In this document: positions 13,417 through 58,271 of the stretch, piece after piece
Layout: each line of letters opens with the position of its first letter
How positions within the stretch are numbered: position 1 is the stretch's first letter
Origin: Heligmosomoides polygyrus polygyrus
Lineage: Eukaryota > Nematoda > Chromadorea > Rhabditida > Heligmosomidae
Assembly (NCBI GenBank): GCA_947396885.1
Contig: OX377204.1
Span: forward strand, 41,191,975 to 41,255,974
DNA: 64,000 nucleotides
Direction: 5' to 3'
Translations under genes and position numbers: made by a program
The notes under the pieces: model-generated
The model's input: the letters and a program-made list of their open reading frames with translations, nothing else
Database searches by the model: none
Told to the model about the DNA's origin: nothing

Positions 13417-15550
13417 TGTATAAGTTGTATCACCTGTATCACCTGCCGTCCCGTTGATAATCCTGACCTGTCACCTGTATCACCCGTCGCCCCGTTGATC
13501 CTCGACTTGCTCGAGCGGGCGCTAGCAGCGTCTCTATTCGCCCTGTCGCCTGCCAGAGTGCTCCAATGGATCATCCTCGAATAGCGGACACGAAGAGCGT
13601 CATAGCAGTCGTTCAGAGCTTTCACGAAGAAGTCCGACCAACGCAATGGTGAGCGCCCCCGTGTTCTCTTGACATCCCGCGGAATCCAGTCGGTGATAGC
13701 TCTCGTCCAGCGGGTGTCTGCGAATCGCATTACGTGGCCGGCCCACCTAATTTTCGACAACTTGGTCCATGCGACAGCGTCTCTTATCTTCGAACGTCGG
13801 CGAAGTTCGGAACTCCGGAGGCCTTCTCTCACTTGCGTGAGTCGTGTCACTCCGAGCATCGTCCTCTCGATTCCACGCTGCGCGACGCTGATCGCGTGTT
13901 CATCCTGCTTTCGTATAGCCCAGGTCTCTGAGGCGTGTGTTAGGGCAGGAAGAACAGTGGACTCGAATAGGTGGGCACGGAGTCGGACGTTCTTCGTCTT
14001 CTTCGCGACTTCTTCGACGCTCTTGAAAGCTCCCCAAGCCGCTCGTTTCCTCCTGCTCAGATCTGGCGCTAGGTCGTTGGCCATATTGATTTCGCGACCC
14101 AGATACACGTAGCTGGAGCATTCGGAGATGTTCGTTCCGTTAAGCGAGAATGAAGCATCAGAAACTTGTCCGTTTTTCATGAATATCGTCTTCGTAAGAT
14201 TCAGCTGCAGTCCAACGTTCCCACATACACGATCAAAGTCGGTCAGCATTCGCCCCGCCTGGCTGATGCTCGGTGTTATGAGCACGATGCCGTCAGCGAA
14301 GCGAAGATGATGTAGTTGCCGGCCGTTGACTTTCACTCCCATGTCTTCTCATTCTAGTCCGCGCATGACGTTTTCGAGGGTGGCGCTGAAGAGCTTCGGG
14401 GATATGGTATCCTCTTGCCGAACCCCTCTCTTTACGTCGATAACGACGTCGTTGTAGAATGGTGAGATCTTGGACGTGAATCAACTGTACAACTCTCGAA
14501 AGACTCTGATGAACCGAGCAGAAAGACCTAGTGAGCAGGGCTTCGATGACCGCTTCAGTTTCGACGGAGTTCAATGCCTTCTTCAGGTCGATGAACGTAA
14601 GCCACAGCGGCAGCTTTAACTCTCGCGATACTTCGATGAGCTTCGTAACGGTGTAGCCGGTCGTGCCGAACCGAAATCCTGGCTGTTCGCATGACTGCTC
14701 TTCGTCCAGCGTTCTGCTAATCCTATTCAGGATGTCCCAAGTGAACAGTTTGTAGACTACGGACAGCAGGCAGATCGGGCGATAGTTGCCAATGTCGTGC
14801 ACGTCTCCTTTTTTGTACAGCAAGACGGTCTTGCTGGTCTTCCACTGAGATGGAACCTTGAACTCCGACAGGTAGCGTGTGAAGAGCCACTCCACGGCGT
14901 TGATGAGCGCTGGTGGGAGGTTTTTCAGGTGTTCAGGTCTGATCCTGTCAGAACCAGGTGATGTGCGTTTCTCCACCGACGAGATGTCGTGCCTTATCTG
15001 AAGGACGCATCCATCCTCCGGAAGGTGGCATGGGAGCAGGTGGACGTGGCTACTGAAGAGATCGGTGTAGAAGTCGTGGATGACCTTCTCCAGAGATGAC
15101 GGCTCCATCGGGACCTCAGAGAGCGGTCGTCTTTGTCTTGGAGTGGCGAAGTTCAGATTGGCATTGCGTATGCTCAACCCTGCCTCTGCAGCTTCAGCAA
15201 CACTTTCGCCCTTCTGCCCTTGAGATCTTCCATTATCGCCGCTCTGCATAGCTTCGCAAGCTCGAGACGTCAGTTGGTACATGGTTGCCTGATGCTCGTG
15301 CTTATTCATGCTGGTGTATCAGCTCGAGAGTGTCTGGAAACAGACGCCTCTTGGTGGTTTTCAAGCTCTCGGCTCCATTAGCACTATCGCGAAGATGGTG
15401 CACGAAACGGTCGTATTCTTCGTCAATGTGGTCCATGACGGCGTCTTCCCAAAGGCAGGCAAGAGAGGTATAAAAGTCCCACTTGGTCGTTCTGGGAATC
15501 CTCTTCTTGAACTTTGCGGCCTTCTCTCCTTGACGCGAATACGGAACCAC
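13398..15550 (-). pseudogene. RTE-A endonuclease/RT polyprotein, broken
   Basis: Three frames that together match the intact 971-residue RTE-A protein from about residue 270 to the end. The frame ends overlap by a few codons (15302/15309 and 14293/14342), showing single frameshifts. The RT active-site box reads FADG in place of FADD, replacing a catalytic aspartate, so even a repaired frame would lack polymerase activity. The tail keeps [33 protein letters not shown] and [16 protein letters not shown]. Confidence 0.85.
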
Positions 15551-15746
15551 GCGCGAAGGAGGCGGTGGTCCGATCTCGTGTGGAACTTGAGGACAACGGA
15601 GACGTCGGTCAGGCTATACTTGCGGCTGAAGATGATGTGATCGATCTCATTGTAGAACTGGCCATCGGGGGATTCGCAGGTCCATTGTAGGGTGGGAGGC
15701 TTCTGGAACTATGAGTTTTCAGAAGCCTCCCCCGCTACGATGTGGT
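13417..15746 (-). mobile_element. RTE-A LINE, 5'-truncated copy
   Basis: Colinear with the 3' two thirds of the intact RTE-A at 49676-53079 and highly similar to it. The 3' end carries tandem TGTATCACC-type units (13426-13490), the RTE-A tail. Coding frames on the - strand are broken: 15302-15550 (end of endonuclease), 14293-15309 (linker and RT) and 13398-14342 (RT palm, with FADGIV instead of FADDIV, and the C-terminal tail). The 5' edge at 15682-15746 is an inverted duplicate of the adjoining element sequence. No clear TSD found. Confidence 0.85.
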
Positions 15747-16990: not shown

Positions 16991-17829
16991 ACCTACAAGT
17001 GGTAGGTGCTTGCATGAATCATCCAGAAATACGCTGGTGCCGGTGAGTAGCACCAATTGATTGACATTAAATAAAATCAGTTATACAGGATACAAGAGCT
17101 ACGACAACCTATGGCCAGGTTCAGAGTCTTGCGGCACCACACCGCCATCATGTCTCTTTCGCTCCTATCGTGTTGGGACCCAAGTTCACCTATAGTGGGA
17201 GCCGTGCCGAGGACGAGTGATCGCAATGCCGCATGACGAACGTGATGCGAGTACAACCATAGTCCACTGCTGAGGGGGATCCGCATGGAACCGCCTGGGG
17301 TAAGATTCGTTCCACTCTACTTTTCTCGATATAACGAAATTTTTGACTGCGCCTTTATCTGTCTACTTGTATTTTAGTATTGCGTTCTTTATATTGTCGG
17401 GATCGGTAACAAGAGGAGGGAGGGAAGGGAAAGTGCACCTTCTGTTTCTTTGGGAAATGTCGTTAGTTTCTTAATTGTGGTTGGTATTTTTCTTCGAAAA
17501 TTCGCGCTGTGCTATATTTATGCATTCATGATAGGAAAGTAATCTGGTTTATTTTGATGAGTTCTGCCCCTCCCCCTTTCCCAGGGGCCAGATACGTCAA
17601 CGACTCATAGCAACTCAACGAAGAAAATACAGCCGAAATCCCTGATGGCGTGGCTTATCGCTGGTGAAACGTTTTACCATATCGCTTGATAGCAATTGTT
17701 ATTAGGGATTTTTCGGTCTATTTTTTTCTAACTCCTGTTTTTGCAAAAAAAAAAGATTGCGATATGGATGTGTTATCTCTTATCGTGCTATTCAACATGG
17801 CACTCGACTACGTAATGAGAAAAACGACA
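16991..17829. other. No gene; one MITE half-copy
   Basis: No protein motif. Contains an inverted-repeat element related to the one at 45825 (about 17583-17725): GGGGCCAGATACGTCAACGAC, ACAGCCGAAATCCCTGATGGCG and CCATATCGCTTGATAGC blocks, with a decayed right half. Confidence 0.5.
17583..17725. mobile_element. MITE, decayed copy of the 45825 family
   Basis: Left half matches the right half (reverse complement) of the MITE at 45825-45997: end GGGGCC, CAACGACT, ACAGCCGAAATCCCTGAT, and the ATATCGCTTGATAG centre. The right half has degenerated to a poly-T-rich tract, so the far end cannot be placed exactly. Confidence 0.6.
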
Positions 17830-17988
17830 GCTGAAGTGCAATGAGGTATTCTTTGGCCTTGAGGAAGTCTTATAGAACTGGGCTTTACTGAGGACATTGC
17901 CATATTCGCTGAGGACAACGATACTCTCCAAAGAAGTACAGAACGCATGAGCCAGGAAGTAGGCAAAATTCCGAACGTTTCCAAATTA
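17830..17988 (+). pseudogene. LINE reverse-transcriptase fragment, left of insertion
   Basis: The frame ending at 17988 reads LGFTEDIAIFAEDNDTLQ, then ERMSQEVGKI and NVSKL: the RT palm segment around the (Y/F)xDD box (here FTED) and the following helix. Joined directly to 30023, it continues in frame with DAKTQ, which is where LINE RTs carry an N/D-x-x-K-T-x motif. The sequence was therefore continuous before the element at 17989-30020 inserted. Family within LINEs not determined. Confidence 0.7.
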
Positions 17989-18322
17989 CAGGGTGCGTAA
18001 AAAGTATTGACGCACTGAACCTAAGCGTTAGAAATGGCAACACATTATAAAATTTAACAAATTTATATACGATAGGTCAACAATGATCTTGCTAACAGAA
18101 TAGCATGACTTGAAGAAATAAAGTCACTCTTTTTAAAACATCTTAAACATAAAGCAAAACTTGTTCTGTATTGTTTACTGACAACAGCTAAATATAACCA
18201 CATACAAAATAAAAACACCACTGTGAAAAAGGATTATTTTAATGTAGTAGTACCTTACTACACACTAAATAGATATAATCAACTTTAACAAAATATTTAA
18301 TAGCATCTACACTATTGAATTT

Positions 18323-18619
18323 ATGAAGACTTTACAATCAAATAAATTATCTTTTAGAGTAGTCTACAAATACGATCCTCCAATGTCAACCAAAACTTTT
18401 AATTACAATAAGTTTCTTAAATCACTAAATAACAACAACATTTCTCACACTTTATCTAATCCTGGTCTATGTGAAACAATTTATGTAAACGATAATAAAT
18501 TTATCAACAAACATCATAATCATATTATAACAGGTAATTTAGAAACTGTTGAAGATACAGCTCTAAGAAAATTATTTAGTAAAGGCCCTAAATATAGGGT
18601 AGGTAAAAAAACTAGATAG
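18323..18619 (+). CDS. Penelope-like element, N-terminal domain frame
   Basis: 98 codons, strongly AT-rich. It contains FNYNKFLKSL, then CETIYVNDNKFINKHHNHIITGNL and LRKLFSKGPKYR. A HVITGDL-then-FSKGPKYR arrangement precedes the RT in a group of metazoan Penelope-like RT proteins that I recognise by pattern. It lies 8 bp upstream of the next frame (18627) and was presumably once continuous with it. No protein motif beyond these is identified. The family assignment depends on the downstream RT. Confidence 0.6.
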   Translation: MKTLQSNKLSFRVVYKYDPPMSTKTFNYNKFLKSLNNNNISHTLSNPGLCETIYVNDNKFINKHHNHIITGNLETVEDTALRKLFSKGPKYRVGKKTR

Positions 18620-18626
18620 AGAAAAA

Positions 18627-18893
18627 ATGAAGGTCACATATAACGACGCTATTGACGCTGTCATCGAAAACATCAAAAATAAATATAAATTGAATGCTGA
18701 CAACATAAATCAAATAAGAAAATATTTTATTTTACAATATGGAAACAAAGTCAAGCCTATATTAAATAATAACCGAGAAAAATCTGAAATTATTCCATAC
18801 AATCAAATAATAGATCACTTTGTCTTTTGCCCGCTTGACAAAGCCTCTAACAACTACGGTATAATATGTAAAAAAAATACTATCTTAAAATAA
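18627..18893 (+). CDS. Penelope-like element, pre-RT domain frame
   Basis: 88 codons. Ends with FVFCPLDKASNNYGIICKK, the conserved segment (xPADKxxNNxxxICKK in relatives) that leads into the RT domain; the next frame opens with MKELGI, which normally follows within a few residues. A single frame slip at about 18893 therefore separates the two. The N-terminal part is Lys/Asn-rich, as expected from the base composition. No independent function is inferred. Confidence 0.65.
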   Translation: MKVTYNDAIDAVIENIKNKYKLNADNINQIRKYFILQYGNKVKPILNNNREKSEIIPYNQIIDHFVFCPLDKASNNYGIICKKNTILK

Positions 18894-18895
18894 CT

Positions 18896-20008
18896 ATGAA
18901 AGAACTGGGAATAGCCATTGATAGACATAATGTACTCTTCACAACAAAAAATCAAGCAGGCAAAGTGTATAGTTACATACCCAACCTTAGCGAATCTGAC
19001 TTCTTACGTAAACACAACCTTTTTAATACGAATAACGGTTTAAGAATTAACAGTAACACCGGAATTTCTATAATCTACTGCCTACCTAAAATGCACAAGG
19101 GCCCAATAAGTTTCAGATTTATTACAGGCGCATCCAAGAGTAGTATTAAAAACCTTGCCCTACAATTACAATGTATATTCACATTTGTTAAGAAGCATTT
19201 CATTAACTACTGTAACATAGTAGCTAACCGAAGCAGATCTACAAAGATATATTGGGCAATTAATAATACAAATATTGCCTACGAACTAAACGCACTACAA
19301 GACGACCATTTAAAACTCTATTCGGCGGACTTTAAAGATATGTTTACTAACCAACTTCATAAGACTATCTTAGACAAAATAGCGATTCTACTCAAAATCT
19401 GTTTCAAAAATGCCAATAAAAATTTCATAGCCTGTAATGGATACAGAACATTTTACACTAATGAAACAAATTTGAATTCTCGATACAAAATATTTAATAT
19501 GCAAGGCATTATGCATTATGTTAATTTCTTACTTAAAAATAGCTATGTGGTATTCAGCTCAACATTTTCTAGACAAAATAAAGGTGTTCCTCAAGGAGGC
19601 AACTTTAGTCCACTACTTGCAGATATCACAGTGTCTATATTGGAATACGAATTCGCTAAATCGTTTGTCGCTAGTAGTAATAACATATTTATACCATACA
19701 GATATATGGATGATCTACTTGTAGTTCATAACTTAAATGAAAAGCATGTGGACGACATTTTAAAGCTAGTCTATAAAGATACTCTGGAATTGAAAAAGGC
19801 GCATATTAATGAACATCACTGCAATTATTTGGACATTACATTAAGAATTATCAATAGTAGAATAGAAGCAAGAATGCACAATAAAACAGATGATTTCAAC
19901 TTTAAAGTTTTAAGGTTTCCACATTTTACGTCAGCAGTCTCCATAAATATCAAAAAAGCCATAATTTTATCGGAAACATTAAGAATAGCAAACATTGTTC
20001 TGACCTAG
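18896..20008 (+). CDS. Penelope-like reverse transcriptase
   Basis: 370 codons. RT landmarks in order: YCLPKMHKGPISFRFI (about residues 62-77), YSADFKDMFTNQ (RT motif with catalytic Asp), GVPQGGNFSPLLADI and YRYMDDLLV (catalytic YxDD box, about residues 270-280), then LDITLRI and LRFPHFTS. The PKxHK block and the QGGNFSP block are those of Penelope-like elements and related RTs rather than LINE or LTR RTs. A frame slip near 20005 moves the C-terminal extension (LEYFLEKVVELKNILKHNG...) to another frame ending at 20197. No GIY-YIG endonuclease is visible. AT content is far above the flanking LINEs. Probably inactive because of three frame breaks, although all RT motifs are intact. Confidence 0.8.
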   Translation: MKELGIAIDRHNVLFTTKNQAGKVYSYIPNLSESDFLRKHNLFNTNNGLRINSNTGISIIYCLPKMHKGPISFRFITGASKSSIKNLALQLQCIFTFVKKHFINYCNIVANRSRSTKIYWAINNTNIAYELNALQDDHLKLYSADFKDMFTNQLHKTILDKIAILLKICFKNANKNFIACNGYRTFYTNETNLNSRYKIFNMQGIMHYVNFLLKNSYVVFSSTFSRQNKGVPQGGNFSPLLADITVSILEYEFAKSFVASSNNIFIPYRYMDDLLVVHNLNEKHVDDILKLVYKDTLELKKAHINEHHCNYLDITLRIINSRIEARMHNKTDDFNFKVLRFPHFTSAVSINIKKAIILSETLRIANIVLT

Positions 20009-20572
20009 AGTATTTTCTAGAAAAAGTTGTTGAATTGAAAAATATTTTAAAGCATAACGGCACATACACAAAAGAGTTCATTGTTTCGAACATAATTAAA
20101 TATTTATATAAACACAGATTTATATATTGTAAGTTCAAATTTCATCAAGTTAAAGACAATCTATCTATATTTTTACGAAAAACTTTTGATGAATGAAGAT
20201 TACATAAAATAAAAATCTGTTAAATCTTTTATTTGCTATAATGCGTAATATATTTATTTAATATACAATATAAATTATTAATACTATCCAATAATTAAAA
20301 CGATACCGTTTTGTTTGGCTGTTAGTTTTATTGCACTCTGTTTTCTACAGTAAGTATAGTTATGCAACCCTTCTCAATGATACAACCAGTTTTGCCATAT
20401 TTGAATTATAAATGAGAATTAGTTTGGATATCACTATATATAACAGTCTACTGACTTCCTTATTTGTAAGTGTACCACTATAGAGTGCGGTGACTGGCAA
20501 AATGACAAGTCGTTCAATTTTGAACAGTGATAAGAATACAATAAGGTATTAATAATAATGATAACTAGAAAT
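20009..20572. other. AT-rich 3' part of the Penelope-like region
   Basis: 20005-20197 encodes, in a shifted frame, the continuation of the RT protein (NGTYTKEF, VSNIIKYLYKHRF) and stops with TGA. From 20198 to the RTE-B target site the sequence is AT-rich and non-coding. The same composition resumes on the far side of RTE-B (28635-29250). Confidence 0.6.
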
Positions 20573-20633
20573 GTTGTGATGTTTACTTTAATACTTTGAT
20601 ACTTTGATGGTCCTTTGTCGGCTGCAGGTCTTC

Positions 20634-21758
20634 TCAGCGGGGACCACAACTCTTCCAGACCGCTCGATCTCTGGCTGCTTGCATCCAGCGAGGGAGACTC
20701 CGCTTTCTGAAAGATCTTGAGAATGAGTCTGCCCATCGCGTTGGCGGTCGTCCCAGTGGTCTCTTATGGTCTCTCGGGAGCCATTCTATGACACGAAGAC
20801 TCCATCTATCGTCCTTTCGTCGAAGCAGGTGTCCGGCCCAGCGATATTTGGACTTCTTCATGTACTGCAGCGGGTCTGCTAATTGCGACTTCTCCCGTAG
20901 CTCCGAGCTTCGTAGGCCTTCTTGCCATTGCGTCGAAGGCTTGCCCTTAGAAGACATCTCTTCAGTGCACGATGCGTAGTTTGCATCGCTCTGGCGATTG
21001 TCTTGTTGTCGGGCCAGGTTTCCGTCGCGTAACACATCGCAGGCAGTACAGAGGCGTTGAATATCGAGGCCCTGAGGCCGGGATCCTTGACCGGTGACTT
21101 CGCGAATCGAACTGAAGGCTGCCCATGCTGCGCGTCTCCTGCGGGCGATTTCAGGAGCGAGGTCGTTATCCATGTTCAGCTCTTTTCCCAGATAGACGTA
21201 GGAGTCGACCTGTTGCAGAGCGACACCATTTAACCTTACGAGTCCCGTGTCACACCACTGGTTGACCATAAATTGTGTCTTGGACATTTTCATGTCCAAT
21301 CCAATCTTCATACCTGCCACATTGAGCTCGTTCAGCATTTCCTCGGCTTCTGCCGTGCTGGTAGAGATGAGAACAATATCGTCGGCAAAGCGAAGGTTGC
21401 TGATCCATTTACCGTCGACAAGGTAGCCTTTTTCGTCCCAGTTCAAGTCTTTCATGGCATCCTGGAGTGCCGCTGTGAATAGCTTGGGAGAAATCGTGTC
21501 TCCCTGCCGTACTCCTTTCCCGATAGGAATTTTAAGCTTTCGATCGAACAACTGGATGGTAGTCGATGTGTTCGAGAAGCATTCGTCGAGAAGTCGGATG
21601 TAGGGCGATGGTATACCAGCGTGCACAAGGGCGTTCAGAACGGCGTTGATTTCCACGGAGTCGAACGCTTTCCGATAATCCTCGAAGACAAGGACAAGTG
21701 GGAGGTGGTATTCGCGGCTCCTTTCGATGAGCTGTGAGACAGTCTGAATATGGTCCAT
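20634..21758 (-). pseudogene. RTE-B reverse transcriptase core and C-terminal tail
   Basis: 374 codons following a TGA directly after GFRKDFS of the preceding frame. Motifs: DHIQTVSQLIERSREY, FEDYRKAFDSVE (FEDYRKAF where RTE-A has FIDLKKAF), [26 protein letters not shown] (catalytic FADD, about residues 123-133), SKTQFM, YVYLGKELNMDND. A segment near 20950-21110 reads out of frame (compensating frameshifts), then the normal tail resumes with LRSSELREKSQ, YRWAGHLLRRKDDRW and WLPRDHKRPLGRPPTRW. Active-site residues persist but the element is broken elsewhere. Confidence 0.88.
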
Positions 21759-22079
21759 TCAGGAGAAATCCTTGCGAAACCCTGCTTGCTCCACTGGCTG
21801 ATATTCATCCAAGCAACGCTCCATGCGGTTAAGCAGTATCTTGGTGAAGATCTTGTACACTACCGAGAGAAGACTGATGGGTCGATAGTTGTTGATATCC
21901 TCCTGCTGACCTTTTTTGAAGATTAAAACTGTTTTTGATTCCTTCCATGAGTCCGGAATCCTACCAATTCGAAGGTAGTGGTTGAAGTGCTTGGCAAGAA
22001 GTGAGCAAACGGCACTGCTACCCGCACGAAGGAGGTCAGCAGAAATGCCGTCCGGTCCGGGAGCAGTGCCCGGCTTCAT
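21759..22079 (-). pseudogene. RTE-B reverse transcriptase, fingers region
   Basis: 106 codons bounded by in-frame stops. Contains PGTAPGPDGISADLLRAG, FNHYLRIGRIPDSWKESKTVLIFKKG, NNYRPISLLSVVYKIFTKILLNRM and QPVEQAGFRKDFS, the RT fingers blocks immediately upstream of the palm. It reads straight on into 20634-21758 apart from one TGA. Upstream of it the frame runs to the LTR element at 22209 through another TGA near 22080. Confidence 0.88.
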
Positions 22080-22208
22080 CCTTCAGATAGCATGAGCAAC
22101 TTCTGATTCCAGAATGGGAGGTACATCCTCAGCTGGTGGCATCAAGCATTTCGGGACAGGGATGGAAGAACGGAACAGATCTGTGTAGAATTCCTGAACG
22201 ATGGCCTC

Positions 22209-22689
22209 TATAATAACTCTGAGCGCGCACTGTGTTCAACAGTGTAGCGGGTGAACGCCCGGTGTTATTACTTGTTATTTATTTTATTTTATGCTCTATA
22301 AATTTGCGAACAAAACGCTTAGTCCTCGCATTAGTTTATTATAATTTCAGACATAAATGTTATGTCCAACGACATCAAAAGTAAAGAGGGCAGGTGTCAG
22401 CCTGACGGCCGAGCACCACCGAGCCCACACACCACTGTCAACCCGGGAGGGCGTTTTCTGTACTCTCTGGGTTGCGGGGCTCTAAGTGATGGCTTAATGG
22501 GGGTCCCGATAGCCAGTGGGCAAACTCCCGCACGGGTAGTTTTAATGGGGCCCAATGGCGTCGGGTAAGACAAGGCTAGGCGTTACTGGGTGACCTAATC
22601 AATCTCCCGTGGATTGGCTATGCTTCTCTTTTACCGTAGCCTACGTCCCATCTCCCTACAGGATTTCATCCCCTTACAATTTCCTTACA
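22209..22689 (-). repeat. 3' LTR of the gypsy element
   Basis: 481 bp, near-identical to 26616-27083. In element orientation it begins TGTAAGG and ends TTATTATA, so the usual terminal CA is absent. Relative to the other LTR it holds an extra 12 bases near 22232-22243. It contains open frames (22362-22568) in both LTRs that reflect sequence identity and not genes. Confidence 0.9.
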
Positions 22690-24102
22690 TCCACGGCGGC
22701 GAAAGAGACCCGGTCGTCGGGTCCTAGTTTATACGGGATGGGATCAGCGGTTGATAGGGCTAATAGAATAAGAGAGAGAGATCAGTGCTGTTCCGATGTG
22801 TAGAAGGTCATCGCAGTTGTGGTGAAGGTGAAAAAGGTGTTGAGTCGTCCTGAGTGGCTGTAAGTATAGGTGAGAGCTGTTACAAGGAACAAAATGCAAA
22901 AACTAAAAAACTCACAACCAGCGGTGTTATCTGTGATACGGTGAATAAGAAACGGAATGAAGATCTTGAAGTATTGATAAAAGATATACGGGATAATTAG
23001 TTGCGCGTAGACTATTTTTTGTTTCAAATAATATTGTTGTCTTGGAGTTTCGACTGCCATTACCCTTGTCTGTCACAGTTGCATGTGCATAGTATCATAT
23101 GTTCCAATAAAGATAAAGATAAAGGAATCTCACACAGTATTAGACTGAGACCGAGTAGTGAGATTTATCATGGCGTCACTGTGCGCGCATTAGAGACGTA
23201 AATAATGCACTCAGATCAAAATCAATGTAGCCCGAGATTAAGGACAGTAACTCGTTAAAAAAAACGACAGTTGTCAAAATACGTACATTTGTTAGACACG
23301 GTGTCCTTATCGTCGCATGTGAAGAAAATTTATGGAACTAGATTCAGTTATATTACACAAAAGGCAGAGTTAAGTAGCGGATGGAGGCCAAAACATGGTG
23401 CTTCGAAGTAAAAGCACTCGTGGTCCGTATAGGTATAAGTGATGAAGGCTGCGAGAAGGAATCCAAAACACTACTCGATATGCATATGCAACTTTCCGGA
23501 TCACAAAACAGCCAACCAGGTGGTGATTTGTTCTTCCCCTGGTGTTGGGATCATGGAACAGGAGCTGGGTTACTTGTTATAGTTGAAACAACTCCTGGTT
23601 GTAGAGCTGCTTTTCTCTTCTAGTTGTATAAAAGTAGTGAGTTTTGGATTTGTTGCAAACGTAAAGCCTTGTTTTTGTATATGAAGCATGGACACGAGTT
23701 CTCTTACTAAATGCAAAGACTGACAGTTTGTCGCCTTGGTTTTGTGCTCGAATAGATACTTAACTGCTAACTTATTATGTAATTTGTGAAGCTGTTCCAT
23801 GAAGGTAGTGTGAACTAGAACGAAGGTGACACTATGTCTGTGATGTACCGTTATAAGAGCGTTTTGCGCTCCTATGTTTATCGATCGCTTCCAACTACAA
23901 GTTTAAATGTCGTTAGTCTGTGGCTGATTACTTGAGTGTTTTAGAGCTGTGTTTAATTGCGTGAAATCGCGTTGCGCAGTGACGGCATGATTTTGTAACG
24001 TAGAAAATTTGCAGAAAGTCGTAAAAAATAGAGAAGAAAGAGAAAATTAGGTTTCGAAGTCTGCAAAAGGGTGCGGGTTTGTGGCTAGAAGAAACTTTGC
24101 AG
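22690..24102 (-). other. 3' non-coding interior of the gypsy element
   Basis: 1.4 kb between the end of the pol remnant and the 3' LTR. No frame with a recognisable motif on either strand; no envelope-like gene is seen. A clear polypurine tract next to the LTR is not obvious. Confidence 0.55.
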
Positions 24103-25016
24103 CTATTCTCCGTCAGAGTTATACAATTTTACCCAGTTCATGTGGACCGTGCGTTCTCTTCGTCCATCGAGAGTGGTAATATTGGGACGCTCTATGTCCA
24201 CAATGACAAAGGGACCTTGAAAACGAGGTGCTATTTTGTTTCCAATGTCTTGCCGTACGAAAACTTGTTGACCTATTTGCAAATTTGAGGGTTGTGTGCG
24301 GTTCCTCAAATCGTAGTGACGTTTTTGTTCTTGCTGTGCTATCTCCAAATTTGCTTGAGTTGTTTTCCAAATAGCACGAAGCATTGGGGTCAGTTGATTT
24401 GCATAGTCTGTTTCTGATGCAAATTTGCGAACAGGTAGTTCCAAGGAATTACGGAAGATGTTGAAGGGATCGTAGCCATGAATCACAGTGTACGGAGAGT
24501 GCTTAGTGGTGGAGTTCTCTGAGCAATTATATGCATGAATAGCTAAGAACATAACATTGTCCCATTCATTGTTACGTGTAGCTATGGCCATGGATATAAG
24601 TTCTTCAATGGTGCGATTTGCGCGCTCGACTTGTCCTTACTTTCATGATGATACAGAGTGCTAGTTTTATGAGCGATTTTAAGGTTTTTAAGAGTAGAAC
24701 GGAAAATGTCACTCATGAAATTTGTGCCTTGATCGGTTACCAAGAGCGCTGGCGGTCCGAAACGAGACACGAAGCGATTCATAAATGTATTTATTATCGT
24801 AAGAGCCTTTTGGTCTGGTATGGGTTCAGCTACTATATATTTCGAGAATACATCGACAAAAACAATTATGAACTTGTTACCATCCAGAGTTTGAGGTAGT
24901 GGTCCAATCACGTCTGAGTGGACTCTTTCCCAAGGACGTACTGGCAGGTCAAAATTGCATAACGGTTCGTTGATTCGATATGCATTGGGGTCTTTACGTT
25001 TCTGACATTGGGGCAC
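24103..25016 (-). pseudogene. Gypsy integrase (frameshifted)
   Basis: Two overlapping frames: 24582-25016 has the integrase core start WERVHSDVIGPLPQTLDGNKF, FVDVFSKYIVAEPI and LLVTDQGTNFMSDIF (first two catalytic Asp), and breaks just after the HHES segment; 24103-24591 continues with NNEWDNVMFLAIHAYNCS, HSPYTVIHGYDP and the GPY/F-type module APRFQGPFVI followed by MNWVKLY. One frame slip near 24640 separates the catalytic Glu region. It would insert element cDNA into chromosomes; this copy is dead. Confidence 0.85.
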
Positions 25017-25044
25017 TGTGGTACCACGGCGGTTACATCGTGGG

Positions 25045-25770
25045 TCATTTTATTCCATATAGCAATTTTCGAAACAGCAGTAAGGGTCTTTCTGACGCCA
25101 AGGTGGCCATTCCCATTTGGGATGAGTGAATTTGTTTGATAAGAGTAATTCTAAGGCTGGAGCTGTCGGGCAAGACTATAACGGGATCTTGGTTTACTTT
25201 CATGGGGACATAGTATAGTATAGCGTTAGCGATGAAATAATTGGAAAATGCGGGATTATTTGGGTTGGTCTGAAGACTTTCTCTAATGAGAGATGTGCGG
25301 GAACAGTTTTGTTGTTCTTCGCATACTTTATCTAAGGTAAATAGTTGGGATGTGACCGCGTTGATTACTATATCCGTGTGGTTAATGGGAAGGTGTCTAG
25401 AAAGTGCGTCACAAACCATGTTGCTCTTACCGGGCCGATAAGTTATCGTGATATCATATTCCTGTATCGCGATTTGGTATTTGGCGAGTCGACCAGTAAG
25501 ATCTCTCCTGTGAAGAAGAGATTTTAATGGCGCGTGGTCTGTTATTACAATTGTTTTCGCGCCGTCAATGTAAGATCGAAATTTTTGAACTGCGAAAACA
25601 AGTCCAAATGATGCGTTAATCAGCACTTCCTTTCTTACCAAAAGTAAGAAGAAATGAAGAAAAAATAAGATGACAAAAAATTTGAGAAGATGAAAAATTT
25701 TAAGTGTAAAGATCACGTTTCCTTTGTCCTTTGTGAAGACTGAGTTGATGCTGGATGAGTCGATTGGCAA
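25045..25770 (-). pseudogene. Gypsy RNase H and integrase zinc-finger region
   Basis: 241-codon frame. The useful part (about 25045-25620) holds VFAVQKFRSYIDGAKTIVITDHAPLKSLL, LAKYQIAIQEYDITITYRPGKSNMVCDALSR (Ty3/gypsy RNase H and its tether) and a decayed H2C2 region (KQIHSSQMGMA). The first 50 codons are a hydrophobic, low-complexity read-through that replaces the expected RT, marking a deletion or insertion breakpoint near 25620. Confidence 0.82.
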
Positions 25771-26597
25771 AATGTCACAGTAAGTTGCTTTTATAGTTGG
25801 TACTATTGTACCTCTAAAATTTATTGAAGACGAAACGAAACGTAAGACAATTCCGGTATATAGAATGTGGATAGTAGAATATGATATGAGAGAACGGTGG
25901 AGAGAGAGACAACTAGTGTTAATCGTGCTTTGCTTGCTCGTTTTTATTTATTCTTAAACTATATATTTTCATCGCCTTAATTCAAAATGAATTTTGGTGT
26001 GCGCTTCATTAACAAATACGACCACAGTACATTTCTTAGTAGTACTTTACCGCGAGGGTGGCGTAGCCTGGCCAGGACTCATCGTAACACTGCTCAAATA
26101 CCGGATTAGAGGGGTTTTTCTCCCTGTCACACAAATGAACGGAATATATAAACTTTTTGCCTCGCGGAATAGAGGTGGAGCAGCGGTGTGACATTGGCGC
26201 TCTCTTTTCTGTAAGAGAAAAGGAACAATAGATCGCAAAAATGGAAAAACGTGGCGGCATAGTATTCAAAACAGGGGACACGAGAGCATTTTGAGCATAA
26301 GCAGAAATATATGAGGTCAGGACAACTTGCTGTGAGATTCAATTCTTGCAAAGGGAACGCCTTTTTTAGATACTGTTACTTCACTAAGTAACAGTATGAA
26401 AAAATTATAAGAAAATATTCTTATGGCCTATTTTTTTATTAAATTGTGCCGGGCACTTACGCAGTGACACTAGAAGGAAGTGTAAAAAACTCATGCAGCA
26501 TTAACATCTTTCCTTTTTTGAAAATTAGAGAGAACACAAATAGAGTGGTGGAAGAAAGGACGAGGAAACCGATCAAAAAATAGGCAAAATAAACTAA
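25771..26597 (-). other. 5' interior of gypsy element, no gag or RT recognised
   Basis: Where gag, protease and RT should lie there are only small frames without motifs. Together with the breakpoint near 25620 this indicates a large internal deletion or replacement. Confidence 0.55.
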
Positions 26598-26615
26598 TGC
26601 GAGCCGGGACCTCCA
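26598..26615 (-). other. tRNA primer-binding site of the gypsy element
   Basis: Immediately inside the 5' LTR the - strand reads TGGAGGTCCCGGCTCG, i.e. complementary to a tRNA 3' end terminating in CCA. The spacing to the LTR is zero. The tRNA identity was not determined. Confidence 0.7.
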
Positions 26616-27083
26616 TATAATAACTCTGAGCGCCCACTAGCGGGTGAACGCCCGCTGTTATTACTTGTTATTTATTTTATTTTATGCTCTATAAATTTGC
26701 GAACAAAACGCTTAGTCCTCGCATTAGTTTATTATAATTTCAGACATAAATGTTATGTCCAGCGACATCAAAAGTAAAGAGGGCAGGTGTCAGCCTGACG
26801 GCCGAGCACCACCGAGCCCACACACCACTGTCAACCCGGGAGGGCGTTTTTCTGTACTCTCTGGGTTGCGGGGCTCTAAGTGATGGCTTAATGGGGGTCC
26901 CGATAGCCAGTGGGCAAACTCCCGCACGGGTAGTTTTAAATGGGCCCAATGGCGTCGGGTAAGACAAGGCTAGGCGTTACTGGGTGACCTAATCAATCTC
27001 CCGTGGATTGGCTATGCTTCTCTTTTACCGTAGCCTACGTCCCATCTCCCTACAGGATTTCATCCCCTTACAATTTCCTTACA
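26616..27083 (-). repeat. 5' LTR of the gypsy element
   Basis: 468 bp copy of 22209-22689. Same ends (TGTAAGG ... TTATTATA in element orientation). It borders the primer-binding site on its inner side and the CCTC duplication on its outer side. Confidence 0.9.
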
Positions 27084-27087
27084 CCTC

Positions 27088-28491
27088 CATCGCTCTTCGA
27101 GACGTTTGCGTTGTTCCATCCTTATCCACAAGGGCTGACATTATTGCCTTCTGATCGCAGAGATCTCGTTTGCAGCGCTTTATGCTTGAACCTTTCCCAG
27201 CCGCTTCTAACAGCTTCAATCTTCTGTAGGCTTGAATGGACTCCTTCACTGCAATTCGACAGGCCTTCGAGATGGTGACTTTTTCCAGATGGGAAGCATT
27301 AGGATCCAGTTTAACAGCTCTTCTTTGCTCCAAGAGTTTAGTCGCATGTGTGCTGGATCATGAAGCAGAAGGTGATGTGGCTCCGCAAGAGCTGCTAGCA
27401 CATTTCAACAGTCCTTTGGAGAGAAGGTCGTAGTCCTCCGATGGATCTTCAAGAAGATTCCAATCATACGACTTTATCGCATATTCCAACTCCTCAGACT
27501 TGAATGTGGGGATCCTCACCGGTGCCGGTTTATGGGTGTCACGCTTGAACATCCTCTTTTTGAGAGTCAGCTTCGCATGGACAAGACGGTGATCCGAGCC
27601 GGTGTCAAATGAAGGCAGCACGGAGACGTCGAACAGACTCCAGCGTCTGTTCGTAAGAACATGGTCGATCTCCGAACGTGTTTCTCCATTTGGGCTTTCC
27701 CAGGTCCATCGTCGGTTTGAAGGCTTCTTAAACATAGAATTTCCATGGTAGAGACGGCACGCGGATAGGAAGTCTATCAGGCGCTCTCCGTTTTCGTTCC
27801 TTGAAGAAGTTCCATGTGGTCCTAGCCTCCATTCGTCGTGATCATTCGTACCGACGATAGCGTTAAAGTCACCAACGACAACTTTGTAGTAGCTCTTCTC
27901 GTCGTTAACAGTCCTTTCGAACAGCTTGTAGAATTCCTCCTTTTCTTCATCTGTGGCCGCAGATGTTGGAGCATATTCATTTATGATGGAGATGGTTCCT
28001 TGATCTTTGGTTTCCAGACGAAGAACAACTACTCGCGGACTGATGATCTTGTAAGAGTCTACTAGGTGGTGCATTGTGGAATTGACGAGAAATCCAACTC
28101 CGCCAATATTCTTTCTGTCCACCTTTGCTCCGATAATGAGAAGCTCGTTGTGGTCGGTCCTTCTTATGGTATCCGTTCTGCCTTTCGTTTCCTGCAGGGC
28201 GATAACGTCGTACTTGATGTTTCGGCTTCTATAAAGCAGTGCCCGAAGATCCTGCTCAGATGCGATCGAACGACAGCTATAAGTGCAGACGAATTTGCAG
28301 TTTTCGCGTCGTGGTGGGAGGGGGCTTCCGGTAGTCCGATTCCAATGACGTCCTGACAGTTTAACTCCGAGATTAGATGGCCCCTCGCCGGAGGTGGATG
28401 CAACCGACGTCGTAGAAGTCCACCTCCGGAGGGCGGAGGACTGGGGCGCGGGTTTAGTTGTTTGAGCCATACCGGTGGTCTGGTTACTCAC
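27088..28491 (-). pseudogene. RTE-B endonuclease and linker
   Basis: Frame 27358-28491 (377 codons) carries an AP-endonuclease-type domain: CTYSCRSIASE, DVIALQETKGR (catalytic Glu), GGVGFLVN, VVVGDFNAIVG (Asp/Asn) and TGSDHRLV (Ser-Asp-His), with the RRWTWESPNGETRSEIDHVL block between. A frameshift near 27345 leads to 27088-27333, the linker with VKLDPNASHLEKV and DGTTQTSRRAME, where the LTR element interrupts it. All recognisable endonuclease active-site residues are kept except the first Asn, replaced in CTYSCRS. Confidence 0.88.
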
Positions 28492-28634
28492 ATGTTCCTA
28501 GCCAGGGATACAGGAGAGCCGCCCATATACGACAAAGCGTCGCGTACTGCGTGACCGTTTGTGCCGTTAGCCATCACAAAGTGATGTTCACCCCTTCACC
28601 GCGGAGGTGGCACATGAAGGGGTTGTGATGTTTA

Positions 28635-29429
28635 TAATAATTATATACTAGATAATTAATCACACATAATAAATTGTAATTATACATACAATAATTAATT
28701 ACATGTAATTGTAGTGATAATTATGAAAAATTATTTTTAAAAATATTAATTATATATAAATACACCTTTTAATTAATGCCATTCAACTTATAAGAGCATC
28801 TTTGATACCTCTTAAAGTTATATCTTTTCATTTACTTAAAAAAATTTCTTTTTCCTCTTTGTTTTTTCTCTTTTGAAATCAAATTTCTCATGTAGATTAT
28901 AGTTCTTTATCCTTTCATATTCATTCTTTCTCTTCTATTCTATTCTTCTTTTACTTCTGACCTCTCCTCCTTTCCTTTTTCCCATCTCTCCTCACACAAA
29001 CAGATTTCAAAGTTATCTTAAAATATTCTCCTCTTCTTCGCTGAAGAGCCACGGGAGGAGCATTACACAAAGGTTCGTCTGAAGGCAGTGGCGAAATGAA
29101 CCTTTTAATGTTTTACAATTTGTGACATATCAATCTTTTAATTAATTTAAAAAATTCTATTATTTTACACCTTTCTTTACTTCTTTGAATTTTACATTTC
29201 GTTATGTTTTATATTACATTATTTATTTATTTTTTTATTTTATATGGGCTTCTGTGCTATGAATGCAGGGCGATGACGACGAGGAGGACATCGACGGTGC
29301 GCCGCAAGTAGTCTACGTCGATTTCGTTCTTTGACCTTCAGTGACATGATACTTTTGTGCATTCAACATGTAAAAGTGTTACATACTCTTCAACAACCTC
29401 CAAACTGCTAATTCTGGCGGAAGGCTTGC
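28635..29429. other. AT-rich segment between RTE-B and the Tc1 remnant
   Basis: Very AT-rich to about 29250, compositionally like 18110-20570 on the other side of RTE-B, so probably the same original insertion (the Penelope-like region). No motif-bearing frame. From 29260 the composition becomes ordinary and soon grades into Tc1-type transposase. Confidence 0.5.
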
Positions 29430-29900
29430 TGCAGGGGAGGCGCATCCGGCCAGTATCATGGTTTGTGCATTCATCACAAGCGTATCTCGTTTTCGTGGAT
29501 ACAGGAGTGAAGATAAATCAGCACAACTATCTGTATTGACGTCCTAAAGAAGCAGTTCCTTGGCTTGAATCCCACCCCGAGAGTAAGCCGTATATCTTCC
29601 AGCAGGATTAGAAACCTGCGCAGAGTCGAGGATTGTTAAGGACTGGTGCCGCGCCAACATGAAGGACTTCATTTCGGCAGAGGAATGACCTCTGTAAAAC
29701 CGTAGTTGAATCCGCTGAATTGCGCTATATGGGAAGTTTTGGAGAACAAGACTTGCGCTACTTCCCACAAGAGTATGAAGTCAGTGAAGGGCGATGTGGT
29801 CAAAGCATGGAGCGAAATCAGCGTGCGGCGCACCGTCGATGCCTTTCCTCGTCGTCTTCGCCCCTGCATTCGCAGCAAAGAAGCCCATATAAAATACAAG
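29430..29900 (+). pseudogene. Tc1-like transposase, C-terminal half, decayed
   Basis: Scattered frames match the C-terminal half of IS630/Tc1-type transposases known from nematodes: HPASIMVCAF near 29450, then EDW-like and NPLNCAIWEVLENKTCATSHKSMKSVKGDVVKAW, and AFPRRLRPCIRSKEAHI near 29850. The catalytic region around the DDE acids is shattered by stops. It sits 20 bp inside the right inverted end of the Tc1-like element at 17989-30020. The N-terminal half has been displaced or lost. Confidence 0.75.
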
Positions 29901-30020
29901 CCATGCTATTCTGTTCGCAGGATCATTGTTGACCTATCGTATATATACTTGTTAAATTTTATAATTTGTTGTCACTTCTAACGCTTAGGTTCAGTGCGTC
30001 AATACTTTTTACGCACCCTG

Positions 30021-30660
30021 TAGATGCGAAAACTCAAGGACAATGCGCGCGGGAAATTTGAGCCCAAGAGACGGCGTCTACGTAAGAGCGGATCGCTTGG
30101 AAGTAAGAGTTTGAGCATCACATACTTCGGAAGTACGATTACCAGTACGATGCTGAGGCTGACGTTCGGTGTAGAATTGCGAAGACGATAGCACTATGCC
30201 GCAGGCTTGAGCTGCTCTGGACCTCCTCTTCATTTTCAAATAACGTCAATCTGTGTTTGAATTCTTCGATAGATGTCCCCACTGCAATGTACGCTAGCGA
30301 AACATGGAATGTGTCAGCTAGTATCGTCGGGCGGGTCAACGGGTCAACGCGTTCCATTGCAAATGCCTGCGACAAATAATGATAGTTTCACGGGATATTT
30401 TACGCAACTCCGACTCCGCCTGGCCGGGCACATACTGTGTTTATCGCACCGCCTGCGAGATAACCCATGCAATGGATATTGCCAGGAAAGCGAACCAGAG
30501 GCCGCTCATGAAACATGTGGCGTCGCGCGTTAATGAGTGACTTGAAAGTTATGTATATTTCTAGGCAGGAGTGCGAAGAAATCGCCAAAGACAGACAGCG
30601 GTGAAAGAGATCCTCGCCCTATGCGCTCGACAGCATGGGAAGAAACAAGTTACTATGTAG
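30021..30660 (+). pseudogene. LINE RT C-terminal fragment, right of insertion
   Basis: Begins DAKTQ in frame with the fragment at 17830-17988. Further on, with frameshifts, it reads YFGSTITS, DAEADVRCRIAKTIALCRRLELLW, PTAMYASETWN, and LRLAGHILCLSHRLRDNP, the usual succession of blocks after the RT palm in LINEs. Heavily decayed. Confidence 0.7.
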
Positions 30661-32605: not shown

Positions 32606-32693
32606 TCTAGCGCCAGGCGGGACTCGAACCCGCACCTCCCTCTGACCGGGCGGGAATGCTCTACGCCATTACACCATCGGCGCCGTCTGATCG
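32606..32693 (-). ncRNA. tRNA-derived SINE head (tRNA-like), copy 1
   Basis: On the - strand a tRNA-like fold is visible: 5' GGCGCCG pairs with the 3' TGGCGCT with G-T ends, T stem GCGGG/CCCGC with loop TTCGAGT. Internal Pol III boxes are intact: A box TGGTGTAATGG and a perfect B box GGTTCGAGTCC. The anticodon arm does not form a standard 5-bp stem with a 7-base loop, so it is not a normal tRNA gene. A related copy with shared 3' flank (AGTTTTGAT) lies at 35178, which points to a SINE. Confidence 0.6.
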
Positions 32694-48800: not shown

Positions 48801-51800
48801 TTTTAAGCATCAGTAATCATTTAGCCTCCAAGTCTATGCTGCCCTGGAAAAGCTTTTCTTGCATTGTTCGCGCAGTCTTTATCTAGAGGTTTTCCCCAAA
48901 ATGTCTCTACAGGAAAATTTAAAAGCATTATTGTACAGCCCTAGACCATAAAATTACAAAGCTAGACCAAGGTAGACCATAAATTTTTCATTATAAAGTC
49001 TACGAAATTCATGCCTAATTGCACATGAAGCCTTTAGCTCGAAGCCTGCTCGAAATATCTCTACAGAGGAATTTTTAAGAGTTCTTATACAGCCCATCAG
49101 ATAGAGCTCGAAATTCTGACATGAAAGTGTGTAGGACTCGCACCAGTACGACTCTTTACGCTGCCTTTGTAAACCCTCAGTGGGGTCGCGGTCGACTGCA
49201 TGCTCCCGTGTTCGGCTAGGTCACCATCGCACGGCGGCCAGGGCTGCCTTGGAGATCGTCGCGAAGCGACGAGTGGCACGGTGCGAGTCGACGCTAATTG
49301 GCACCACAGGCACTGTCGGCATCGTCAGTGCGCATCCGAGTCGGGACTAACGACTGCCTCCCTTAAGTACTTTTGTAGTGTGGTCGTGCAGATCGGAATC
49401 CGTAGAGCTCGACAACGGGTGCCAGCTCTTGCTCTTCCGCTAGATGCTCTTCCCTTTCGGTTGACGCGGGGCTTCCAATGTTCTCCGAAAAGATAAACCG
49501 CTTTCTCACGCTAAAATCGACACTGACACAGACACTTGCAACAGCGCGACGGCACTGCACTCTGTGCTCTCCCCAAGGACTCGATATACTCGCCTCCCGT
49601 TGTTACGCGTCCGAATAAGCCGCGACTCCCGATTTAACGAGAACTTTTTCGGGAACCGTGCAGCTTATCATCGATCACCTGTATCACCTGTCGTCCCGTT
49701 GATCATCGTCTTGCTCGAGCGGGCGCCAGCAGCGTCTCCATTCGTCCCTGTCGCGTGCCAGAGTGGTCCAATGGATCCTCCTCGCTCGAGGGACACGAAG
49801 AGCGTCACATCGGTCGTTCAGGGCTTTCACGAAGAAGTCCGACCAACGCGTTGGTGGGCGTCCTGGTGTTCTTTTGACATCTCGCGGAATCCAATCTGTG
49901 ACGACTCTCGTCCAGCGGGTGTCTGCGAATCGCATTACGTGGCCGGCCCACCTAATTTTCGACGACTTGGCCCATGCGACAGCGTCTCTGATCTTCGAAC
50001 GTCGGCGAAGCTCGGAACTCCGGAGGCCTTCTCTCACTTGCGTGAGTCGTGTTACTCCGAGCATCGTCCTCTCGATTCCACGCTGCGCGACGCTGATCGC
50101 GTGTTCATCCTGCTTTCGTATAGCCCAGGTCTCTGAGGCGTATGTTAGGGCACGAAGAACAGTGGAGTCGAATAGGTGGGCACGGAGTCGGACGTTCTTC
50201 GTCTTCTTCGCGACTTCTTCGACGCTCTTGAAAGCTCCCCAAGCCGCTCGTTTCCTCCTGCTTAGCTCTGGTGCTAGGTCGTTGGCCATGTTGACTTCGC
50301 GACCCAGATACACATAGCTGGAGCATTCGGAGATGTTCGTTCCGTTGAGCGAGAATGGGGCATCAGAAACCCATCCGTTCTTCATGAACATCGTCTTCGT
50401 AAGATTCAGCTGCAGTCCAACGCTTCCACATACACGATCGAAGTCGGCCAGCATTCGTTCCGCCTGACTGATGCTCGGTGTTATGAGCACGATGTCGTCA
50501 GCGAAGCGAAGATGGTGTAGTTGCCGGCCGTCGACCTTCACTCCCATGTCTTCCCATTCTAGTTCGCGCATGACGTTTTCGAGGGTGGCGCTGAAGAGCT
50601 TCGGGGATATGGTATCCCCTTGTCGAACCCCTCTCTTCACGTCAATGACGACGTCGTTGTAGAATGGTGAGATCTTGGTCGTGAATCCACTGTACAGCTC
50701 TCGAAGGACCCTGATGTACTGAGTAGGAACGCCCTGGGTGAGCAGGGCTTCCATGACCGCTTCAGTCTCGACGGAGTCGAATGCCTTCTTCAGGTCGATG
50801 AACGTAAGGCACAGCGGCAGCTTGTACTCTCGCGACACTTCGATGAGCTTCGTAATGGTGTGTATGTGGTCGATCGTGCTGAATCCTCTCCGAAATCCTG
50901 CTTGTTCGCATGGCTGTCCTTCGTCCAGCGTTCTACTAATCCTATTCAGGATGACTCGAGTGAACAGCTTGTAGACTACGGACAACAGGCAGATCGGGCG
51001 ATAGTTGCCAATGTCGTGCACGTCTCCCTTCTTGTACAGCAAAACGGTCTTGCTGGTCTTCCACTGAGATGGAACCTTGCATTCGGACAGGTAGCGTGTG
51101 AAGAGCCGCGCCAAGGTGTTGATGAGCGCTGGCGGGAGGTACTTCAGGTGTTCGGGTCTGATCCTGTCGGGACCGGGTGCTGTACGTTTCTTCACCGACG
51201 AGATGGCGTGTCGGATCTCGGAAGGGAGAACAGAGGGGACGACGTATCCATCCTGCGGAAGATGGCATGGGGGCAGGTGGACGTGGCTATCGAAGAGATC
51301 GGAGTAGAAGTCGTGGATGACTTTCTCCATGGTCCTTCTGGAAGAGGTGATGGTTCCGTCAGGACGTCGGAGAGCGGTCATCTTGGTCTTGAAGTTGGCG
51401 AAGTTCCGGCGGGCATTGCGGATGCTCAGCCCTGCCTCTGCTGCTTCAGCCAACACTTCCGCCCTTCTCTCCTTGAGATCTTCCTTTATCGCCGCTCTGC
51501 ATAGCTTTGCAAGCTCGGACGTCAGTTGGTAGTTGCCTGACGCTCGTGCTGCTCCACGCTGGCGTATCAGCTCGAGAGTTTCCGGAGACAGGCGTCTCTT
51601 GGTGGTCTTCAAGCTCTCGGCTCCCTTAGCACTATCGTGGAGATGGTGCACGAAGCGATCGTACTCCTCGTCGACGTTGTCCACGACGGCATCTTCCCAA
51701 AGGCCGACAAGAGAGGTGTAGAGATCCCAGTTGATGGTCGTTCTGGGATTCCTCTTCTTGAACTTCGCGGCCTTCTCTCCTTGACGCGAAAAGCGGAACC

Positions 51801-56815: not shown

Positions 56816-56937
56816 GCGATCAGGGGAGAAAATGCCCGTGACCAGGTAGAAAATGCCCGCGACTAGGGGAGAAAATGCCCGCGATCGGGGGAGAAAATGT
56901 CCATAGCCAGGGAAGAAGATATCTGTGGCCACTGAAC
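56816..56937 (-). repeat. 22-bp tandem repeat array, left
   Basis: About five units of GAAAATGCCCGCGAC(C/T)AGGGG-type sequence. The same unit occurs in opposite orientation at 58124-58271. Confidence 0.9.
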
Positions 56938-58123: not shown

Positions 58124-58271
58124 GACCCGGGAGTTTTCTCCCCTGATCGCGGGCATTTTCTCCCTTGGTTGCGCGCGTTTTCTCCCTGGTTGCGGGCATT
58201 TTCTCCCCTGGTCGCGAGCAATTTCTCCGCACGCAACGCGCGCCGTGAGATTCGGGCATTTTCTCCGTAGA
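58124..58271 (+). repeat. 22-bp tandem repeat array, right, inverted
   Basis: About six units of CGGGCATTTTCTCCCCTGGTCG-type sequence, the reverse complement of the left array's unit. Confidence 0.9.

Follow-up and report, generated by a model that had tools for sequence, protein, structure and literature searches.

A clade of Penelope-like elements (PLEs) with a permuted order of domains was reportedly described by Craig et al. in 2021, and the names Naiad and Chlamys belong to this permuted clade. Among LTR elements, non-autonomous forms have kept their LTRs while part of their proteins is missing. The canonical Penelope and Poseidon proteins are described as carrying the GIY-YIG domain at the C terminus (PMC11167929), and the Penelope elements described from Adineta vaga include 5'-truncated copies, partial tandems, a copy within another retrotransposon and some copies without a target duplication (PMC3846280). 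Nested transposable elements have been used for relative chronology, for example in the LTR nests of plants (PMC6911290).

The locus analyzed here is a nest of this kind. It lies, at about 41.2098-41.2226 Mb of contig C52 (genome G000), in a stretch of 64,000 nucleotides (the window) from Heligmosomoides polygyrus polygyrus, in which a LINE remnant was very probably (we would say at about 94%) hit by four insertions in turn: a Tc1/mariner-like element of ~0.9 kb, a permuted PLE, an RTE-type LINE and a short LTR element. It resembles the plant nests in having insertion inside insertion and in taking its order from interruption and target duplications, and it departs from those described there in bringing together five kinds of element and in having nucleotide empty sites for three insertions, the two being alike as a kind of structure (PMC6911290). 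Further copies were searched for in the genome from which the window comes (656 Mb, 1130 contigs); about 40 candidates were scored in each search, so that all copy numbers are lower bounds. The features are as follows.

17785..17988, plus strand: LINE remnant, left half (reverse transcriptase region), ending at the TA target (tblastn with the 792-aa frame of L067; empty site)
17987..17988, no strand: TA target duplication, left copy (sequence)
17989..18112, plus strand: Tc1-like element, outer part of the left inverted repeat (sequence and other copies)
18113..18124, no strand: 12 bp fitting neither Tc1-like nor aligned PLE sequence (alignment)
18125..20585, plus strand: PLE, 5'-truncated, with a reverse transcriptase frame at 18872-20005 that contains frame shifts (RVT_1; 17/17 loci continue upstream)
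20573..20585, no strand: 13-bp target duplication GTTGTGATGTTTA, left copy (exact match; PLE copies with one target)
20586..22208, minus strand: RTE-type LINE, 3' half, with reverse transcriptase and 3' tail (RVT_1; joined frame)
22205..22208, no strand: CCTC target duplication, left copy, also RTE sequence (exact match)
22209..22689, minus strand: LTR, 3' in element orientation (LTR comparison)
24106..25947, minus strand: interior of the LTR element, RNase H and then integrase core (domain matches)
26616..27083, minus strand: LTR, 5' in element orientation (LTR comparison)
27084..27087, no strand: CCTC target duplication, right copy (exact match)
27088..28621, minus strand: RTE-type LINE, 5' half, with endonuclease (Exo_endo_phos)
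28622..28634, no strand: 13-bp target duplication GTTGTGATGTTTA, right copy (exact match; PLE copies with one target)
28635..29216, plus strand: PLE, 3' part (family alignment)
29217..29235, no strand: T-rich stretch of 19 bp separating the usual 3' end of the PLE from the point where Tc1-like sequence resumes (alignment)
29236..30020, plus strand: rest of the Tc1-like element, with the inner left repeat (to ~29306), a middle part with a transposase-like remnant recognized by eye, and the right repeat (~29824-30020) (sequence and copies)
30021..30022, no strand: TA target duplication, right copy (sequence)
30023..30646, plus strand: LINE remnant, right half (tblastn with the L067 frame; empty site)

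Elsewhere in the window, a tRNA-Thr-like gene at 32608-32684 (minus strand) gave the only Rfam match at gathering score, a weak one (31.2 bits), and two arrays of 22-bp repeats (56816-56899 and 58134-58228) lie mutually inverted about 1.3 kb apart.

From oldest to youngest, the layers are LINE, Tc1-like, Penelope-like, RTE-type LINE and LTR element, and both the nesting and this order hold. Containment and boundaries are shown, and so is host continuity, at nucleotide level for every insertion but the last and at protein level for that one: when the check suggested with the initial annotation was run, asking whether host flanks are continuous in related genomic copies, LINE, Tc1-like and PLE sequences proved continuous in nucleotides and the RTE in protein.

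At the outermost level, the joined LINE flanks formed a query of 501 nt with the junction at 209/210, for which 40 of 257 candidates were scored. The flanks run unbroken over the junction in all 39 other scored matches, at 78 to 80% identity (the remaining scored match is the window's own right half), and a single TA, reading AATTAG, occupies the site in the three uninterrupted copies inspected. This nucleotide-level empty site bears out the interruption of the LINE between 17988 and 30023, which had been noticed from a reading frame said to resume in phase from NVSKL to DAKTQ. The frame itself did not hold up. It is open, but the window copy carries a 5-nt difference from its relatives directly ahead of the insertion site, and NVSKL/DAKTQ is therefore not the frame of the LINE; tblastn with the protein of L067, an uninterrupted copy with a 792-codon frame and a reverse transcriptase domain, gives ENSRTMRAGN, from 30028, as the right-hand frame.

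The Tc1-like element spans 17989-30020, and its ends, CAGGGTGCG and CGCACCCTG, each stand beside a TA. The TA duplication and terminal inverted repeats are those of the Tc1/mariner type. Of the initial description, the TA and the place of the element stood, while the inverted ends, given as ~100 bp, are in fact ~190 to 200 bp long (14 differences in 188 compared columns, K2P 0.079), with 29236-29306 being the inner left repeat. A separate small element at 29233-29899, delimited by inverted arms (I2), was considered and rejected, as its arms turned out to be the inner portions of the Tc1-like inverted repeats. A putative transposase-like remnant occupies ~29390-29930, with frames read by eye; searches for DDE transposase support for this remnant gave no Pfam match, no PDB match by phmmer and no homologue. 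The element is apparently non-autonomous.

Joining window positions 17987-18112 and 29233-30022 gave a Tc1-like query of 916 nt, with which 40 of 1315 candidates were scored and 30 loci cut. After removal of the window's own two ends and pairing of L002 with L006, L005 with L010, L007 with L009 and L024 with L029, 24 other elements were left. The joined sequence aligns in one piece over the 18112/29233 junction in 18 of them, and in the remaining 6 (L008, L012, L013, L014, L022 and L024/L029) the two pieces abut, with a short gap in L012. Since other copies are continuous from 18112 to 29233, the stretch 18113-29235 interrupts the left inverted repeat of an element of ~0.9 kb; the apparent 12-kb "element" is an ordinary copy of that size carrying an interruption. 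The uninterrupted target at the PLE site reads GACTTG followed directly by TATTTTATATGGG. The placement of the PLE inside the Tc1-like element, formerly deduced from composition and position, is demonstrated by those Tc1-like copies that run without interruption across the place of the PLE block.

The PLE query (18113-20572) had at least 45 matches, with 40 of 636 candidates scored and the best others at 93%, and 29 loci outside the window were cut. In all 17 loci that match at 18135 or earlier, sequence common to the family extends upstream of 18125, and the window copy is thus truncated at its 5' side at about this position. At the other side, where 25 loci have the 3' part, 17 of them stop matching at 29215-29221, 7 stop before this point and 1 continues past it. 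The AT-rich look of the block comes from a G+C content of 25 to 29%, compared with 46% for the window. We saw no target duplication at the edges of the window PLE, the longest word common to both being 3 bases. These edges, with the unexplained 12 and 19 bp, are what speaks for the block having been carried in by the Tc1-like element as cargo or filler, for example after capture in gap repair. We regard such a joint arrival as very improbable, given that the block is absent at that point from all 24 other Tc1-like elements inspected, that it derives from a multi-copy PLE family, 17 of 25 loci of which stop at the usual 3' end of that family, and that the inspected PLE copies sit in other surroundings. 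A later insertion of the PLE into the Tc1-like element is the reading kept here.

The RTE-type LINE interrupts the PLE between two exact copies of a 13-bp sequence (20573/28622), as first annotated, and PLE copies unbroken over the site confirm this layer. Among the 29 other PLE loci, L037, L038, L059 and L062 cross it free of gaps, with one target copy and 82 to 86% identity; the more distant L047, L054, L056 and L057 do so with small gaps, at 69 to 75% identity, and the remaining 21 gave no match passing the filter. Among 200,000 pairs of positions drawn at random from the window, none gave a direct match of at least 13 bp with an offset of up to 2. Endonuclease, reverse transcriptase and target duplication fit an RTE-type LINE, and the subfamily given initially, RTE-B, is kept as putative. 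The copy contains three in-frame stops and frame shifts (frames read by eye). Two further RTE-like copies in the window (13471-15721 and 49675-51973) are 88% identical to each other; protein identity to the reverse transcriptase of the nested RTE is 45% for the RTE-like 49729-50874 and 38% for 13539-14528.

The innermost element, on the minus strand at 22209-27083, shows LTRs, a short target duplication and RNase H before integrase, all of them gypsy-like features. Its initial assignment to gypsy was retained in part: the order of RNase H and integrase agrees with it, while neither gag nor a polymerase domain, gypsy-type reverse transcriptase included, was found in the five frames searched in the window copy, and we file it as an LTR element with gypsy-like order. 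Its proposed position inside the RTE, with a 4-bp duplication (22205/27084), is supported by the exact CCTC, by the unbroken frame SRRAMEAIVQEFYTDLF obtained when the RTE flanks are joined across the site, and by one related RTE in the window (51588-51202), which is continuous over the site at 38% identity in a protein comparison. The LTR pair differs at 5 of 467 compared sites (K2P 0.011, 15 gap columns). A search with the LTR gave at least 42 matches, forming 14 neighboring pairs within 15 kb, and 10 of the 14, the window's own among them, are spaced 4386 to 4414 bases; in all four other pairs sampled the integrase stretch was found at the expected offset with 98% identity. This constant spacing and offset suggest that it was the short form that multiplied, presumably by means of the proteins of a fuller relative. 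The family is like non-autonomous LTR elements in its same-size short form in several copies and unlike them in that RNase H and integrase are still recognizable. Two LTRs of this family adjoin head to tail at C27:64355412-64356378 and at C39:57112650-57113611 of the same genome (G000).

Target duplications had been taken as proof of three layers. All three are exact; the 4-bp and TA duplications are weak on their own, because 0.4% of the 200,000 random pairs matched over at least 4 bp at a fixed offset. The chronology proposed at the outset is upheld at nucleotide level by uninterrupted copies for each insertion but the last, and for the last by protein. Divergence (LINE, 78 to 80% identity to its kin; Tc1-like repeats, K2P 0.079; PLE, 93% to the nearest copies; LTR pair, K2P 0.011) fits the insertion order at both ends, with the Tc1-like and PLE layers too close to rank by divergence alone. 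That the nest is an assembly artefact of wrongly joined repeats, a thought invited by all five layers being multi-copy repeats, is more improbable still, as misjoins would not be expected to produce exact duplications together with continuous host sequence at four separate sites. The order is valid for the window locus and not for whole families: at L032 (2500-3850; G000 C52, ~48.923 Mb), in a second meeting of the two families, a TA-ended Tc1-like copy adjoins a diverged PLE on its AT-rich 3' side, and the active times of the families may therefore overlap.

As to the enzymes and steps of the four successive insertions, we infer the following course. The ~0.9-kb Tc1/mariner-like element would have entered the LINE remnant at a TA by cut and paste. 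The permuted PLE would then have entered the left inverted repeat of this element by a target-primed process, leaving a 5'-truncated copy with no visible duplication. An RTE-type LINE may next have entered the 3' region of the PLE by target-primed reverse transcription, making the 13-bp duplication, and lastly the short LTR element would have entered the RTE with a 4-bp duplication, its integration aided by the proteins of a fuller relative.

In the PLE family, two of the four loci examined, L040 (G000 C13:70726893-70729261) and L042 (G000 C844:7860-10228), have a 962-codon frame that is open from stop to stop, and in its protein GIY-YIG occupies residues 90-173 and RVT_1 669-838 of 962, which puts the endonuclease at the N terminus. 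The RVT_1 match is present in the window copy and in its relatives, while the GIY-YIG part is absent from the truncated window copy. A first idea, drawn from P0001, of a PLE lacking an endonuclease was rejected, since the relatives have this N-terminal domain. Their arrangement differs from the C-terminal GIY-YIG described for canonical Penelope and Poseidon proteins (PMC11167929). With truncation, tandems, insertion in another element and, in the window copy, no visible duplication, the family is similar to the Penelope elements described from Adineta vaga (PMC3846280).

The relatives show the permuted, endonuclease-first order, and their putative membership of the permuted clade is judged on this domain order, the likeness being that endonuclease precedes reverse transcriptase in one frame in both. 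Compared with the PDB, the PLE reverse transcriptase had weak matches only, to group II intron and retron-type reverse transcriptases. On contig C844, three copies (L041, L042 and L064) are spaced 5037 and 5031 bases, and the DNA that precedes the 5' part of L042 recurs after its 3' end, which indicates a tandem array with a unit of ~5.03 kb (the element alone or with neighboring DNA). In 15 PLE copies with both edges in view, the longest word common to the edges was 4 to 7 bases, the 5' point used not being the element's own end for at least L037, L040 to L043 and L046. Because of these uncertain 5' points and of a possible 5-bp target duplication (TAATT) at L044, insertion without target duplication is not proven as a rule for the family. 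Three weak matches below gathering score, none of them a ribozyme, resulted from a ribozyme search of six loci, most with PLE copies, and nothing useful was found in comparing the PLE with phage records or P0001 and the Tc1-like end with viral contigs. P0005, related to the PLE protein at 31% identity, comes from a genome bin labelled Candidatus Omnitrophica and is possibly eukaryotic DNA in a bacterial bin.

Nests of such a kind are common and ordinary for a repeat-rich genome of 656 Mb; the documentation of this one is unusually good, and what makes it valuable is how complete the evidence is, together with the permuted PLE family, and not the type of nest. Tentatively, and with the odds somewhat against it as a whole, we may be dealing with an endonuclease-first PLE family with open 962-codon frames and a ~5.03-kb tandem array that as a rule inserts without target duplication, so that the nest would bracket the insertion of a retroelement type that is little studied and may still be mobile, alongside an LTR family that has spread without its own gag and polymerase. 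For five families of elements the nest fixes a local order with confidence, and a chronology of the whole genome could be built out from it. It is chiefly useful in pointing to a permuted PLE family that has open frames and inserts by a poorly understood mechanism, and also in pointing to the LTR family that apparently depends on others.
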